Below are positions 14,283 to 31,013 of a DNA stretch of 51,365 nucleotides, piece after piece (within the stretch, counting starts at the first letter, position 1; the number at the start of each line of letters is the position of its first letter). The translations under genes and the position numbers were made by a program. The stretch spans positions 1 through 51,365 of the forward strand of contig JAMPEW010000021.1 of the NCBI GenBank assembly GCA_023664775.1. Direction: 5' to 3'. A model generated the notes under the pieces. It worked only from the letters and a program-made list of their open reading frames with translations, was not told the DNA's origin and ran no database searches. The stretch comes from Clostridium sp. (GTDB taxonomy: Bacteria > Bacillota > Clostridia > Lachnospirales > Lachnospiraceae).

Positions 14283-14369
14283 TAGAAATGGCGGGAAATT
14301 CTTCCCGCCTACGGTGGTCCAAAGAGCTTTCGCCCAGACCAAAACTGTAACTCGTTACAGTTTTATTCT
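14283..14369 (-). ncRNA. Structured leader RNA upstream of DUF3800 (DUF3800-type motif)
   Basis: On the minus strand three hairpins follow each other almost without spacer. The first is AAAACTGTAAC/GTTACAGTTTT (14341-14364). The second has outer GGTC/GACC with an inner GGGC-GAAA-GCTC GNRA tetraloop (14316-14340). The third is GGCGGGAA/TTCCCGCC (14290-14309). The last ends about 30 nt before the DUF3800 ATG. Comparative genomics has described several RNA motifs lying upstream of DUF3800 genes (DUF3800-I and others); this fits that class by position and compactness. I cannot say which subclass without a covariance model. Confidence 0.7.
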
Positions 14370-23871: not shown

Positions 23872-25971
23872 CTACACTGCAAACAAGAGCTTTTCATATG
23901 TCGGATATGGTAATATATCATCAGGAATAAGTGCTTCTATCTCATTTGCGCAGGCAGCAAGGGCATCCATCTTAGGAAGTACCTTGTCACGACATGCATT
24001 TGCAGCCTCCTGCATTTCTGCAATGGCAAGTGTTTCCTCCGTAAGCTTTTTAAGCTCTGCCACATTATCAGTGATAAATTTATATGCATCCGTAAGCTTT
24101 TTAACAAGCGCTTCCTCAGTTTCCATTGAAAGACTTGGCATAAATGCCTTTGCACTTGCTGCATCGCCTGCTACCTTTCCGGCATATGCTGAAACTGACG
24201 GCAGGAAATCCTTTGTAAGCATGTCAGCCATTGTACGTGCCTCAATTCCAATTGTCTTGACATAATTCTCAAGGAGTATTTCATATCTTGCAAAGATTTC
24301 CTCCTTGGTAAAAATACCATGCTTTGTGAAAAGCTCAACATTTTTATCCTCAATAAACTTAGGCAGACAATCCGGTGTAGTCGGCAAATTATATAATCCT
24401 CTTGACTCTGCCTCCTTAATCCACTCATCCGTATATCCGTTGCCGTTAAATATAACCTTTTTGTGCTTTCTGATTGCTCTCTTGATAAGCTCGTGTACTG
24501 CATGCTCCATATCCTCAGGCTTTGTTCCCTCAAGCTCGTGATAAAACTGCTCAAGTGCCTCAGCAACAGCAGTATTCAGTATTACGTTAGGATTTGAAAC
24601 CGATGCTGACGAGCCAAGCATACGGAATTCAAATTTATTTCCGGTAAATGCAAACGGTGATGTACGGTTTCTGTCAGTGTTATCCTTAAAGAAATGAGGA
24701 AGCACATTTGCACCCGTCTCAAGCTGTACCTTTTCCTGCTTTCCAAAGTATGTGTCATTTTCAATGGACTGAAGAACAGCCGTAAGCTCATCTCCAAGGA
24801 ATATTGAAATGATTGCAGGAGGTGCTTCATTTCCTCCAAGCCTGTGGTCATTACCTGCTGATGACGCTGCTATTCTCATCAAATCAGAATAATCGTCAAC
24901 CGCCTTGATAACTGCCATAAGGAATACTAAAAATTGTATATTCTGTGCAGGTGTTCTTCCCGGATTCAAAAGATTTACACCATCATTTGTCGATACTGAC
25001 CAGTTATTGTGCTTGCCGCTTCCGTTTATTCCCTCAAACGGCTTCTCATGTAAAAGACATACAAGTCCATGCTTCTCGGCAACCTTCTTCATTGTATCCA
25101 TGGTAAGCTGGTTGTGGTCAACCGCAATGTTTGCCGTCTCAAATATCGGTGCCATCTCATGCTGTGCAGGTGCAACCTCATTGTGCTTTGTCTTGGCAGG
25201 TATGCCGTACTTCCAAAGCTCTCTGTCAAGGTCATGCATATATGCTGCAATTCTAGGCTTGATAGAACCAAAGTAATGATCCTCCATCTCCTGTCCCTTT
25301 GGCGCCGGAGCTCCGAAAAGCGTTCTTCCACAGAACACAAGATCCTTTCTCTTATTGTAAAGCTCTCTGTCCACAAGGAAATATTCCTGCTCAGGTCCTA
25401 TTGTTGTTGATACGCCTGTTACCGTATCATTTCCAAGAAGATGAAGTATCTTGACTGCCTTCTCGCTTAACATTTCCATAGAACGAAGAAGCGGTGTTTT
25501 CTTATCAAGCGCCTGACCGCCATATGAACAAAAGGCTGTCGGTATGTAAAGTGTTCCGTCCTTAATAAATGCAGGAGAGGTTGGATCCCATGCAGTATAT
25601 CCTCTTGCCTCAAATGTTGCACGAAGTCCTCCTGATGGGAAGCTTGATGCATCAGGCTCACCCTTTACAAGCTCCTTACCCGAAAATTCCATGATAACCT
25701 CTCCATCACCTGAAGGCTGTATGAAGCTGTCATGCTTTTCAGCAGTAAAGCCCGTCATCGGCTGAAACCAATGAGTGTAATGGGTGGCACCGTTCTCAAC
25801 AGCCCACTCCTTCATTGCAACTGCAACTGAATTTGCAACGTCAAGCTCAAGGTGTGTACCGTTTTCAATTGTTTTCTTGAGTGCCTTGTACATATCCTTC
25901 GGTAACTTTGTTCTCATTACCTTATCATTAAAAACAAGGCTTCCGTATAATTCAGGTATTTCATTTGCCAT
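23872..25971 (-). CDS. glnN: Glutamine synthetase type III (GlnN)
   Basis: ATP-dependent amidation of glutamate with ammonia. The 699-residue length and sequence are those of GSIII, the large form of Bacteroides and many Clostridia: THWFQPMTG and EKHDSFIQP near the N terminus, TTIGPEQEYFLVD (metal-binding Glu), KTKHNEVAPAQHEMAP, GSGKHNNWSVST (catalytic HNNWS), RIAASSAGNDHRLGGNEAPPAIISIF. I start at MANEIPELYG, with AAGGAGG 9 nt upstream; a longer frame runs into the leader. Its own strong promoter (26095-26122) is followed at once by a terminator hairpin (26040-26078), so early termination probably sets the level of glnA-purF. GSIII is not adenylylated as far as known. Confidence 0.97.
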   Translation of the reverse strand: MANEIPELYGSLVFNDKVMRTKLPKDMYKALKKTIENGTHLELDVANSVAVAMKEWAVENGATHYTHWFQPMTGFTAEKHDSFIQPSGDGEVIMEFSGKELVKGEPDASSFPSGGLRATFEARGYTAWDPTSPAFIKDGTLYIPTAFCSYGGQALDKKTPLLRSMEMLSEKAVKILHLLGNDTVTGVSTTIGPEQEYFLVDRELYNKRKDLVFCGRTLFGAPAPKGQEMEDHYFGSIKPRIAAYMHDLDRELWKYGIPAKTKHNEVAPAQHEMAPIFETANIAVDHNQLTMDTMKKVAEKHGLVCLLHEKPFEGINGSGKHNNWSVSTNDGVNLLNPGRTPAQNIQFLVFLMAVIKAVDDYSDLMRIAASSAGNDHRLGGNEAPPAIISIFLGDELTAVLQSIENDTYFGKQEKVQLETGANVLPHFFKDNTDRNRTSPFAFTGNKFEFRMLGSSASVSNPNVILNTAVAEALEQFYHELEGTKPEDMEHAVHELIKRAIRKHKKVIFNGNGYTDEWIKEAESRGLYNLPTTPDCLPKFIEDKNVELFTKHGIFTKEEIFARYEILLENYVKTIGIEARTMADMLTKDFLPSVSAYAGKVAGDAASAKAFMPSLSMETEEALVKKLTDAYKFITDNVAELKKLTEETLAIAEMQEAANACRDKVLPKMDALAACANEIEALIPDDILPYPTYEKLLFAV

Positions 25972-26039
25972 ATCTTTTTTCCTCCTTCTTTGAACGCCGC
26001 ATTTAAAGCTTTGCTTCACAATATGTTCCTATTCAAACA

Positions 26040-26078
26040 AAAAAAGGGCGCTTTAGAGTTATTCTCCAAAGCGCCTTT
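26040..26078 (-). terminator. Intrinsic terminator in the glnA leader (attenuator)
   Basis: On the minus strand AAAGGCGCTTTGGAG pairs with CTCTAAAGCGCCC around AATAA, followed by TTTTTTT. It lies downstream of the glnA promoter and starts about 10 nt after the predicted transcript start. The loop is not the A1/G4 hexaloop expected for ANTAR-type antitermination. Confidence 0.8.
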
Positions 26079-26094
26079 GCTTTTACGTTTTCAA

Positions 26095-26122
26095 ATTATA
26101 CACCTAAATTTTAAAATGTCAA
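26095..26122 (-). promoter_or_regulatory. glnA promoter
   Basis: Minus-strand TTGACA (26122-26117), 16-nt spacer, TATAAT (26100-26095): consensus in both hexamers. The predicted start is about 26088. Confidence 0.85.
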
Positions 26123-28115: not shown

Positions 28116-28901
28116 CTACAATTCTTCAACTAATACGGATATATCCTGAAGCTGTTTCGCATTTCCATAGAAAACACCTTGGTTTATATTACAGTCCTTA
28201 TAATCCCTTCCGTTAGAAATTTTAATATGGTCTTCCTTTACAATCAGATTATTTGTTGGGTCGAGGGCAATCCACCTTCCATTTTCATATATGTCTACCC
28301 ATGCATGGGATAATCCCTCACCCATAAGCATACCAACCACATAACGGCATGGTATATGCTCCATCCTGCAAAGTCCAAGCATAATATGGGCATAATCCTG
28401 ACAAACTCCCTGTCCAAGCCTTAATGCCTCCTCCGCCGTTGTTTCTATCCCCGTTACACCCTGAACATAAGAAAAGCTGTTATAAAGCTTATTCATAAAT
28501 AAAAGCGCCTTATCTAAGTTTCCTGCATCCTCTGAAAATGATATGGAATTATAAAACATGTTCATTTCCTGCCCGGGTTTTGTGTACTCTGTCTGATATT
28601 TATAGAAGCCTATTTTGTGTATTTGACTCTCACTCTCACAATCAGCGAGCCCTGTCCTTGCCTTTCCCATGACATCAATGTAAAATTTGTTATGCTCGTT
28701 TTTAGCATAGCCGTAATAGCAGAAATTTCCAAAGGAATCAAAATCCTTACTGATAAATTCATTTGGATAAACATCCACCTCAAGGTCATATATTTCCTGC
28801 CTGTCACTGTCAAGGGGAATACATTTCAGCGTAAAACGGTGTTCCCTAATTGGCACGTCAAAAGAAAGCCTCATTCGGTAATGAAATTTTAGGTTTTTCA
28901 T
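28116..28901 (-). CDS. Transglutaminase-like cysteine protease-fold protein
   Basis: A 261-residue protein. Residues 1-150 carry the N-terminal beta domain typical of the COG1305 group found with alpha-E genes. The transglutaminase core follows, with the catalytic triad Cys in GQGVCQDYAH, His in LSHAWVDIY and Asp in IALDPTN. Bacterial members are thought to act as peptidases or amide transferases. The gene is 30 nt after the alpha-E gene and 9 nt or more before the AspA-like pair. This ATP-grasp, alpha-E, transglutaminase order is a recognised but biochemically unexplored gene set. No signal peptide, so cytoplasmic. Confidence 0.9.
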   Translation of the reverse strand: MKNLKFHYRMRLSFDVPIREHRFTLKCIPLDSDRQEIYDLEVDVYPNEFISKDFDSFGNFCYYGYAKNEHNKFYIDVMGKARTGLADCESESQIHKIGFYKYQTEYTKPGQEMNMFYNSISFSEDAGNLDKALLFMNKLYNSFSYVQGVTGIETTAEEALRLGQGVCQDYAHIMLGLCRMEHIPCRYVVGMLMGEGLSHAWVDIYENGRWIALDPTNNLIVKEDHIKISNGRDYKDCNINQGVFYGNAKQLQDISVLVEEL

Positions 28902-28931
28902 AACGCTCCTCCATTTTAAAGAAACAGACTG

Positions 28932-29594
28932 CTACACTAAAGCCTCAACTGTTTTTACTATTTCTTTGTAATCAAGCTCATCCATCTCACAAAAATAGTT
29001 AAGCTTCATAAGGTTTGCGTGATTGTAGCTTAAGCCTGTCCGGTCAATTCGTCCTGTCAGACGCCGAACCTCCCGGACAAGCTCCGAAGCCTTGTAATGC
29101 ATTCTTGCATACAAATCAATTCTTTCAATCCGCTTTCCAACCTTGATAATATTTCTTACATATTCACTGTCAATCTGATCGTCTGCAATGCCCCAAAATG
29201 CAACAATATCATCCTTAACACTCATAAGAGGGATAAGTGGTGCATCTGATTCCTTAGCTTTATTCATGGCATAAACGGCGAGCTGAATATAGGCAAGCGT
29301 CTCACTTCCTATTTCCTCCCTCAGCACAATTGCATTATCATATGCCCGCATAAGATTTGAAAATATTGAATTTACATCCGTCTTATCAAAGCAGTACCTG
29401 CTTACAAAATCCTCTGACGAGGTATAAATATTGGGAATTTCCTGCCTCCTGCAATATTCCTCATATGCATTTTCTTCCATGTCAATCATAGTATCATATC
29501 GCTCCGAAAAAAATTTCAGTGTGGAATATACCCTTTCACTATATCTTCCAAGCCAATATAATCTGTCCATATGTTCTACTGAGATAATACCCAT
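28932..29594 (-). CDS. Alpha-E domain protein
   Basis: A 220-residue all-helical protein of the alpha-E family (COG2307): EHMDRLYWLGRYSERVYSTLKFFSERYD at the N terminus, EDFVSRYCFD, and AYDNAIVLREEIGSETLAYIQ. The family has no measured activity; it almost always accompanies a circularly permuted ATP-grasp protein and is predicted to be its partner in peptide or amide synthesis. The first codons overlap the end of the ATP-grasp gene by 19 nt, so the two are translationally coupled, which favours a stoichiometric complex. Confidence 0.92.
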   Translation of the reverse strand: MGIISVEHMDRLYWLGRYSERVYSTLKFFSERYDTMIDMEENAYEEYCRRQEIPNIYTSSEDFVSRYCFDKTDVNSIFSNLMRAYDNAIVLREEIGSETLAYIQLAVYAMNKAKESDAPLIPLMSVKDDIVAFWGIADDQIDSEYVRNIIKVGKRIERIDLYARMHYKASELVREVRRLTGRIDRTGLSYNHANLMKLNYFCEMDELDYKEIVKTVEALV

Positions 29595-30895
29595 GTGTCC
29601 TTAAAGCCTCCTCCCTGTGATGAATTCACAATAAATGAATCCGGATTCCTTGAAAATCTTGTCAAACCACTTTTCCAAACCATCGGCTCCTCTGCCATAA
29701 GCACGAATGCCCGAAGGTCAGCTTTCCTCGGTACAACTTTGCCCTTGTCCATAATATCAATATCAAGGAAATCAATTACCTCCTGTGCAATAAACCGTCT
29801 CGGTTCCGCCTTCAGCATTTCAACAAAAGCTTCCTTTTCCGGCTTCGTCATCTTACTTCCAAAAACAACTCCGTACCCGCCTGCCTCAGCAACATCCTTC
29901 AGTACAAGGCTGTCAAAATTATCCAAAACGTATTTCATATCCTCCTCATAATACGGAAGATAGGTCGGAGCATTTTTCAAAATCGGCTCCTCGCCCAAAT
30001 AATACGTTATCATCTTAGGCACAAAATAATAAATACCCTTATCATCTGCAACTCCGTTTCCGGGCGCATTCATTAGTGCGACATTTCCTTTGCGGTATAT
30101 ATCATAAATATGTGGAATGCCTATTACCGACTCCTCAAGAAAATTCATCGGGTCCAAATAGTCATCGGATATACGCCGATAAACAACTCCAACTTTCTCC
30201 TTGTGCCCTGCATAATCAAGAAAATACAAATGATCATTTTCCACGACAAGCTCACTGCCTGTAACAAGGTGTGCCCCTGTCTTTTCTGCAAGATAGGAAT
30301 GTTCAAAATAAGCAGCATTGTATCTGCCCGGTGTAAGGATGACGGAGTGTCCGCCCGTATTCACATAATCCATTGTTTTTCTAAGTAATTCAGCGTAATT
30401 ACGGTTATCCTCAATATGATTTTCCTGAAAGGTTTTCGGACTGCTTCTTCTACAAAGCTCTCTTGCAATCATGGGGTATGATGCGCCCGACGGCACTCTT
30501 AAGTTATCCTCAAGAATATACCATTCCCTATCCTTTCCCTGAACTAAGTCTATTCCTGAAATATGGTTATATACCTCCTTAGGCGGGCTTGTACCCTCAC
30601 ATTGTACAAGATAACCACTTCCTGCATATACAAATTCCTCCGGAACGACCTTGTCCCGAATAATTTTTTTGTCCCCATAAATATCCTTGATAAAGCAATT
30701 TAACGCTTTTACCCTTTGCTTTAATCCTTTCTCCAACTGCTCAAATTCCTTTTTTTCAATGATTCTCGGTATTGTATCAAAGGGAAAAAGCTGCTCTTTA
30801 AATTCATTATTTTTATAAATGCCAAACTTAACGCCATATCTTGCCAACAGCTCATTTACTGTGTCCGTATGCCTGTACAAATCCAAATTTTCCAT
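29576..30895 (-). CDS. Circularly permuted ATP-grasp ligase (COG2308 type)
   Basis: A 439-residue predicted amide-bond-forming ligase. Recognisable segments are IDLVQGKDREWYILEDNLRVPSG, PGRYNAAYFEHSYLA, GVVYRRISDDYLDP, NAPGNGVADDKGIYYFVP and LVLKDVAEAGGYGVVFG, the order characteristic of the circularly permuted ATP-grasp family. The family was predicted by comparative genomics to make small peptides or modify proteins; the substrate is unknown. Start at MENLDLYRHT, with AAAGGAGG upstream; the longer frame would read through the leader terminator. It is the first gene of the five-gene operon and has its own promoter with an immediate terminator hairpin. Confidence 0.92.
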   Translation of the reverse strand: MENLDLYRHTDTVNELLARYGVKFGIYKNNEFKEQLFPFDTIPRIIEKKEFEQLEKGLKQRVKALNCFIKDIYGDKKIIRDKVVPEEFVYAGSGYLVQCEGTSPPKEVYNHISGIDLVQGKDREWYILEDNLRVPSGASYPMIARELCRRSSPKTFQENHIEDNRNYAELLRKTMDYVNTGGHSVILTPGRYNAAYFEHSYLAEKTGAHLVTGSELVVENDHLYFLDYAGHKEKVGVVYRRISDDYLDPMNFLEESVIGIPHIYDIYRKGNVALMNAPGNGVADDKGIYYFVPKMITYYLGEEPILKNAPTYLPYYEEDMKYVLDNFDSLVLKDVAEAGGYGVVFGSKMTKPEKEAFVEMLKAEPRRFIAQEVIDFLDIDIMDKGKVVPRKADLRAFVLMAEEPMVWKSGLTRFSRNPDSFIVNSSQGGGFKDTWVLSQ

Positions 30896-30937
30896 GACAA
30901 ATCCTCCTTTCAAGAACAAAATACTATAAAAACAAAA

Positions 30938-30974
30938 AGAAAAAGGCGCTCTGCATAATTGCAAAACGCCTTTG
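30938..30974 (-). terminator. Intrinsic terminator in the ATP-grasp operon leader
   Basis: On the minus strand AAAGGCGTTTTGCA pairs fully (with G-U pairs) with TGCAGAGCGCCTTT around loop ATTA, then TTCTTTTT. It lies between the predicted promoter and the gene. The arm AAAGGCG is the same as in the glnA leader hairpin. Confidence 0.78.
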
Positions 30975-30984
30975 TTTGTATAAA

Positions 30985-31013
30985 CAGTAGCACAACATTA
31001 TAATTTAGTCAAG
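30985..31013 (-). promoter_or_regulatory. Promoter of the ATP-grasp operon
   Basis: Minus-strand TTGACT (31013-31008), 17-nt spacer, TGC-TACTGT extended -10 (30990-30985). The predicted start is about 30978, only a few nt before the hairpin. Confidence 0.6.

Follow-up and report, generated by a model that had tools for sequence, protein, structure and literature searches.

A five-gene ATP-grasp/alpha-E/transglutaminase/AspA operon of Clostridium sp. with a single-hexaloop leader: a candidate amide cassette for nitrogen limitation

What do the circularly permuted (CP) ATP-grasp, alpha-E and transglutaminase-like proteins make or cleave, and under which condition are they produced? The three-gene core is widespread and, to our knowledge, has no known product. 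The question is raised here by a locus of Clostridium sp. (Lachnospiraceae; GCA_023664775.1, contig JAMPEW010000021.1, positions 1-51,365, forward strand; this whole stretch of 51,365 nucleotides (nt) is termed the window), in which the core continues into two genes of the AstE/AspA family, AspA1 and AspA2, and is preceded by a very short leader. We propose, at a probability of roughly 0.6, that the operon encodes an amide ligation and cleavage cassette for nitrogen limitation under a single-hexaloop ANTAR-type leader, in which AspA1 would be the releasing enzyme and AspA2 a structural or regulatory partner. As read from the nucleotide and translated sequences, the gene set, its diagnostic residues, the leader and the occurrence of the leader form the basis of this proposal.

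The leader of the five-gene operon

The features of the operon are as follows (aa, amino acids).

30984..31012, minus strand: putative promoter, TTGACT at 31012-31007 with the extended -10 element TGC-TACTGT at 30992-30984, alternatively TATAAT (31002-30997) behind a weak -35 element
30964..30977, minus strand: predicted ANTAR-type antiterminator hairpin, AAAC-AAAGGC-GTTT, hexaloop at 30973-30968, mutually exclusive with the terminator
30942..30973, minus strand: intrinsic terminator of the leader with a 14-bp stem and the loop ATTA, followed by a T-rich tract, fold -20.4 kcal/mol
29576..30895, minus strand: CP ATP-grasp protein of amide-ligase type, 439 aa, PF14403 456.6 bits, PF04174 419.8 bits
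28932..29594, minus strand: short alpha-E protein, 220 aa, PF04168 70.8 bits
28116..28901, minus strand: transglutaminase-like protein, predicted active, 261 aa, PF01841 69.3 bits, PF08379 36.4 bits
27126..28082, minus strand: AspA1, AstE/AspA-family amidohydrolase, predicted active, 318 aa, PF24827 76.0 bits
26172..27104, minus strand: AspA2, predicted pseudoenzyme of the AstE/AspA fold, 310 aa, PF24827 49.5 bits

The hairpins of the leader recur before the ATP-grasp gene in relatives. Over 19 leaders, 97.3% of the cells of the terminator stem are paired and double changes occur in 8 of its 14 pairs. The alternative helix that closes the hexaloop covaries, with 13 double-change cells against 5.3 in shuffled alignments and a score of 0.506 against 0.273 (0 of 500 shuffles as high). 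The small hairpin alone folds at +0.1 (operon) and -2.3 kcal/mol, compared with about -20 kcal/mol for the terminator; as it is hardly stable by itself, a protein would be needed to hold it. Position 1 of the loop is A in 16 of the 19 leaders and G in the other three, and position 4 is G in all 19. According to extracts of PMC3369931 and PMC8934654, ANTAR proteins recognise a hexaloop that sits at a terminator's 5' base and has A at position 1 and G at position 4; the hexaloop found here carries A1/G4, overlaps the terminator and is closed by a covarying stem. A pattern search of named loci forced G at loop position 4 as well as the closing pair, so that its loop counts do not bear on the A1/G4 rule; the hexaloop stems that it returned have a mean of 4.31, modestly above shuffles (mean 3.90, maximum 4.33).

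We scanned promoters and geometry in 66 leaders (42 operon leaders and 24 others). A best promoter score of at least 9.5 is reached in 77% of them and in 10% of shuffles; from the -10 box to the closing of the hexaloop the median distance is 15 nt (operon) and 14 nt (other), so that the RNA would start within a few nt of the hairpin. The leader resembles an ANTAR target in its predicted working, but lacks the second hairpin and is not classed as a classical dual-hexaloop leader. Variants were also seen. In L044 and L049 the ATP-grasp gene is preceded by two leader hairpins in tandem, each of which has a terminator of its own, and tandem matches occur before a type III glutamine synthetase (GSIII) gene in G190:C56. 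In a distant Bacillota family (L272:13500-13540), the operon leader reads GAGC-AAAGAA-GCTC, and this A1/G4 hexaloop likewise sits at a terminator's 5' base.

Occurrence of the leader and of the gene set

A covariance model (R1) built from the 19 leaders, namely 18 operon leaders and the GSIII leader of the window, was run on 15 genomes. In the genome of the window, the operon leader scores 56.6 bits, the GSIII leader 47.2 bits and the next other place 26.8 bits. Over the 15 genomes, 22 places of at least 36 bits lie away from an ATP-grasp start (reverse-strand copies left out), and 21 of these were fetched. Eighteen of the 21, none of them a row of R1, precede nitrogen genes: GSIII (five), amtB or glnK-amtB (five), amino-acid ABC transporters (three), CTP synthase (two), a regulator followed by P-II (one), glutamate synthase (one), and purF followed by apparent carA and carB, as read by eye (one). 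The 22nd place (G135:C30, in L041) lies upstream of transporter genes that are linked to the set. At scores under about 34 bits, the genes downstream are commonly unrelated ones. Among named loci with enough upstream sequence, the leader matches at the ATP-grasp start in 49 of 66, and in L032 and L041 the match stands before the transporter block.

In 200 genomes of the family, with a strong match defined as E <=1e-4 anywhere in the genome, strong leader matches are found in 131 of 175 ANTAR-positive and 5 of 25 ANTAR-negative genomes (Fisher p=1.7e-7, a value overstated because the genomes are related). A strong match is present in 25 of the 27 genomes that carry alpha-E, and the remaining two are the two that lack ANTAR. 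All six AspA2 genomes in a sample of 398 genomes across the phylum have ANTAR, compared with 202 of the 398 overall, and several strong matches stand about 2 kb upstream of candidate ANTAR genes. The genome of the window itself encodes an ANTAR protein (G000:C12:42567-42713, 59.2 bits), the gene of which adjoins a second glutamine synthetase gene (glnA-ANTAR pair). Between this pair and the gene upstream of it lies a near-perfect inverted repeat of about 150 nt (L056:8470-8620), where no AAAGGC leader was seen.

The second leader of the window belongs to the neighbouring glutamine synthetase unit.

26095..26122, minus strand: promoter of the glutamine synthetase unit, TTGACA-16-TATAAT, 12/12 consensus
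26035..26088, minus strand: leader of the glutamine synthetase unit, hexaloop AAAGGC at 26078-26073 overlapping the terminator at 26075-26047, R1 47.2 bits, itself a row of R1
23872..25971, minus strand: GSIII, outside the operon, PF12437 273 bits

A sequence-only reading of this locus had the five-gene set continue into the glutamine synthetase operon, from which it is in fact separated by that unit's own 12/12 promoter and leader hairpin; the glutamine synthetase operon is a separate, probably co-regulated unit, and in 26 relatives no GSIII gene was found next to the five-gene operon. The link to glutamate or glutamine suggested in that reading survives through regulation, the evidence being the leader held in common with nitrogen genes, and not through chemistry. 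Elsewhere in the window, positions 14294-14341 match the Rfam family DUF3800-XI RNA at 50.2 bits, over its gathering score.

As regards the operon itself, open reading frames (ORFs) and Pfam matches show the five genes arranged head to tail between 30895 and 26172, all on the minus strand; ATP-grasp overlaps alpha-E by 19 nt, and gaps of 30, 33 and 21 nt separate the later genes. The overlapping or tightly spaced core that runs on into two AspA/AstE-like genes is thus as the sequence-only reading described it. The interval 28116..30974 that it assigned to the core holds real genes, but its upper end falls in the leader, the ATP-grasp ATG being at 30895. That the two deacylase genes are linked to the ATP-grasp set, the point on which its extended pathway depended, was checked in relatives and stands, because the five-gene set is conserved within the family and also occurs in five genomes from other families of the Bacillota. 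Alpha-E is present in 27 of the 200 family genomes, and of the other 26 neighbourhoods, 22 have all five genes in the same order and orientation; three of the remaining four (L033, L034 and L043) are contig ends inside the set, and in the fourth (L052) alpha-E is interrupted by stops. This last gene (L024/L052, G037:C135) holds TAG and TAA, whereas the other four genes are open, and is either broken or affected by a sequencing error.

In a scan of named genomes for AspA2, the best 80 of 581 confirmed places were taken, which are nearest relatives and hence not an unbiased sample. All five genes are present in 68 of these 80, and L212 has ATP-grasp with the AspA pair. Seven of the other 11 lie at most 2.1 kb from a contig end; four have room, of which L202 and L256 carry the transglutaminase gene and L184 and L242 the pair only. 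In other Bacillota families, the full set occurs in L269, L270, L271 and L273, and likewise in L272 if the alpha-E found by a later profile search is added. Across the 398 genomes of the phylum sample, AspA2 occurs in six and alpha-E in nine, and all six AspA2 genomes are among the nine. In the three with alpha-E and no AspA2 (G221, G418 and G368), alpha-E is long and the stretch fetched contains no AspA pair. G501 and G523 carry a long alpha-E together with the AspA pair, which suggests that the pair joined the core before alpha-E was shortened.

Genes for an amino-acid ABC transporter adjoin the set in some genomes, and a cytidylate-kinase-like gene (PF13189) stands between such a transporter block and ATP-grasp in L032, L041, L200, L222, L234 and others. 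The AspA pair or the full set also occurs on contigs labelled Treponema or Spirochaetes (L184, L200 and L233), in L233 behind a 48-bit leader, through either gene transfer or mis-binning.

Predicted proteins and the proposed cassette

The ATP-grasp protein covers its profiles nearly completely (PF14403 positions 1-373 of 374, with a cut-off of 32 bits; PF04174 positions 1-332 of 332), has the solved relative 3n6x (E 5e-110) and shows 186 invariant residues in a 26-row alignment. Alpha-E scores well above the curated PF04168 cut-off (70.8 against 20.8 bits), but covers positions 7-166 of 294, about half of the domain, and is accordingly a short variant; in five other Bacillota genomes the match spans positions 1 or 2 to 293 or 294. 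Its predicted structure is all-helical and confident (pLDDT 92). The catalytic triad of transglutaminase-like enzymes is Cys-His-Asp. In the transglutaminase-like protein (solved relative 3isr, E 6e-16), C167, H199 and D214 do not vary over the 26 rows of an alignment in which gaps are ignored and one sequence is a 181-aa fragment, and the protein is predicted to be active.

AstE/AspA amidohydrolases bind zinc through His, Glu and His and use a catalytic Glu. All 29 sequences in the AspA1 alignment have H42, E45, H129 and E191, which predicts an active amidohydrolase; solved relatives are 3cdx, 3na6, 2qj8 and 6twm. In AspA2, R38, E41 and Q127 are invariant in 35 of 35 sequences, with R38 and Q127 in place of the two zinc-binding His; position 127 is H in one row (L055) of a separate 25-row alignment. 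The AspA2 model keeps the AspA fold (TM 0.78 to 3cdx) at 14-21% identity to its best solved matches. A stretch at about residues 86-112 is strongly conserved, and model confidence is low in 84-94 and 100-104. AspA2 is thus predicted to be a pseudoenzyme of the AstE/AspA fold, and the active-inactive deacylase pairing put forward in the sequence-only reading is borne out by the residues of both proteins. From their adjacency and the conservation of AspA2, we infer that AspA2 partners AspA1. A second AspA1/AspA2-like pair occurs in the same genome without core genes (G000:C7:44983-46609; L268:8972-10838), with a CheY-like ORF upstream. Its AspA1-like member has Y at the first zinc His position and its partner has R, so that both look inactive.

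Taken together, these traits are consistent with the following scheme. The operon would be a single transcription unit with an intrinsic terminator immediately after its promoter. With ample nitrogen, transcription would halt at the leader terminator, whereas in nitrogen shortage an ANTAR-domain antiterminator would bind and hold the hexaloop hairpin, which lies in the 5' arm of the terminator, and permit read-through. The operon would then be expressed together with GSIII and, in relatives, also with the ammonium transporter, glutamate synthase and amino-acid importers. The ATP-grasp protein, presumably partnered by alpha-E, would use ATP to activate a carboxylate and join it to an amine, giving an amide. 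Amino-acid nitrogen would be transferred or released by the transglutaminase-like cysteine enzyme and by AspA1, a zinc amidohydrolase in a putative heteromer with the dead AspA2; AspA1/AspA2 stand in the place that Anbu has in proteobacteria.

In agreement with a nitrogen role, extracts of PMC8050072 report that in Pseudomonas putida PP_2688 (CP ATP-grasp) and PP_2685 (Anbu) are up by log2 3.99 and log2 4.44, respectively, on nitrate versus ammonium, and that both promoters were chosen as nitrogen sensors. Anbu is likewise described as up in nitrogen-limited P. putida (extracts of PMC5666114 and PMC6376114), and marine metagenomes are reported to link these domains to urea metabolism (PMC3597751, in part). 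The ATP-grasp of the Yersinia Anbu operon frees phosphate from ATP; according to extracts of PMC6376114, no amide product is known and no stable complex of the operon proteins with Anbu was detected.

Several observations weigh against the proposal. By consensus, the window promoter of the operon is weaker than in most relatives among the 66 leaders. A second, upstream hexaloop (P1) fits in only 1 of the 66, whereas classical ANTAR leaders carry two hexaloops, both needed in eutP (PMC3369931, in part). The top R1 matches of the genome of the window are not an independent test, because both are rows of R1. Three of the 21 fetched matches (L090, L095 and L106) have no nitrogen gene downstream. 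Seventeen of the 66 named loci lack a match directly upstream, and in eight of these, genes for an amino-acid ABC transporter, a cytidylate-kinase-like protein or both stand immediately upstream, which is not so in the other nine. Two of the five ANTAR-negative genomes with strong matches are 98-100% complete (G072 and G109), no leader was seen before the glnA-ANTAR genes of the genome of the window, and Anbu was unchanged under several other conditions (extracts of PMC5666114).

Protein tagging and small-product synthesis stand as open variants of the same chemistry. In reversible tagging, which we consider unlikely here, the ATP-grasp protein would ligate an amino acid or peptide to proteins and transglutaminase and AspA would remove it, coupling nitrogen shortage to protein turnover. 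Tagging has been proposed for the Anbu operon, which has the same three-gene core (PMC6376114, in part), and is compatible with the leader, differing from the proposed cassette in its target; on the other hand, the annotations of solved relatives with the AspA fold point to small substrates (6twm, DoeB; 8eip, CphZ), and the amino-acid importer joined to the set in some genomes speaks against it.

Another possibility, in line with the sequence-only reading, is the synthesis of a small amide for secretion or storage, in which AspA1 would do the trimming; it now appears doubtful. A ligase and an amidohydrolase do stand in one unit, and AspA-fold enzymes trim cyanophycin dipeptides (8eip; PMC10206079, in part). 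However, storage would not be expected in a nitrogen-scarcity regulon, and cyanophycin synthetase gave no match over the cut-off in any of the 27 alpha-E genomes. An equally doubtful alternative accepts the leader as real and nitrogen-linked, but has it read by a factor other than an ANTAR protein. A single hexaloop near the predicted 5' end, rather than the dual motif, and the strong matches in ANTAR-negative genomes favour such a factor, whereas the A1/G4 pattern of the loops and the co-occurrence of leader and ANTAR across the 200 family genomes point to an ANTAR protein, and extracts of the EutV-RNA structure paper redefine the minimal ANTAR motif as a single hexaloop (PMC8934654). Finally, it is quite improbable that the hairpin is the ordinary terminator of the upstream gene, alike across genomes by chance, and the operon not nitrogen-controlled: although a same-strand HAD gene ends 83 nt before the hairpin in the window and places without a nitrogen gene score about 24-36 bits with R1, promoters precede the hairpin at the spacing given above, the long ORF upstream of the L047 leader is on the opposite strand, and strong matches concentrate at nitrogen genes and in ANTAR-bearing genomes.

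Beyond the cassette itself, we tentatively advance a broader view, held with less than even confidence. Lachnospiraceae may run much of their nitrogen assimilation through very short leaders in which a single ANTAR hexaloop lies a few nt from the RNA 5' end, inside the terminator. The core, from proteobacteria to Bacillota, may be an undescribed nitrogen-salvage amide cycle that gained nitrogen control independently across phyla and swapped its hydrolase, Anbu in one case and an active/dead AspA heteromer in the other.

Relation to known systems

New here is the AspA-linked form of a known core gene set, together with its leader. No description of either was found in Creative Commons-licensed literature, and some leaders may figure in the supplementary tables of PMC3369931. 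In the literature found, nitrogen induction of the core is reported for P. putida only; if the proposal is correct, the Bacillota leader held in common with nitrogen genes would provide a second and seemingly independent piece of evidence for a link between the core and nitrogen. The common leader makes the function testable and names nitrogen shortage as the condition for a product search. The presence of AspA1/AspA2 in the place of Anbu suggests a role for the variable hydrolase slot, namely amide hydrolysis that releases something small. In addition, these leaders would show a single ANTAR hexaloop occurring in nature, and such a regulon could answer why eutP needs two, left open by the authors of the EutV-RNA structure.

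The Anbu operon (CP ATP-grasp, alpha-E, transglutaminase and Anbu) has the same three-gene core and is nitrogen-responsive in P. putida, as is likewise proposed here (PMC8050072 and PMC5666114, in part). It differs in that none of the five genes at the present locus is Anbu, both genes after transglutaminase being of the AspA family (active/inactive), and in that alpha-E is short here and a leader terminator stands upstream of the present set. The three-gene cores of other Bacillota (L282-L284) have ATP-grasp, a long alpha-E and transglutaminase in a row, like the core here; in L284 the call is one ORF of 633 aa that scores as transglutaminase, with the alpha-E match at the same place in the genome. 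They differ in that no AspA1/AspA2 was found within the fetched stretches of 11-12 kb. A long alpha-E is combined with the AspA pair in the f60 sets L272 and L273, which thus lie between the two types.

Like the ANTAR dual-hexaloop leaders of eut, nas and ami, as given in extracts of PMC3369931, the present kind of leader has an A1/G4 hexaloop at its terminator's 5' base, is followed by nitrogen genes and occurs together with an ANTAR protein in the genome; it differs in having one hexaloop, a median of 14-15 nt after the -10 box. The DoeB, CphZ and AstE amidohydrolases share the fold of AspA1 and AspA2, and AspA1 also has the expected zinc and catalytic residues; unlike them, AspA1 is paired with a dead paralogue, AspA2, the model of which shows 14-21% identity to the best solved matches.

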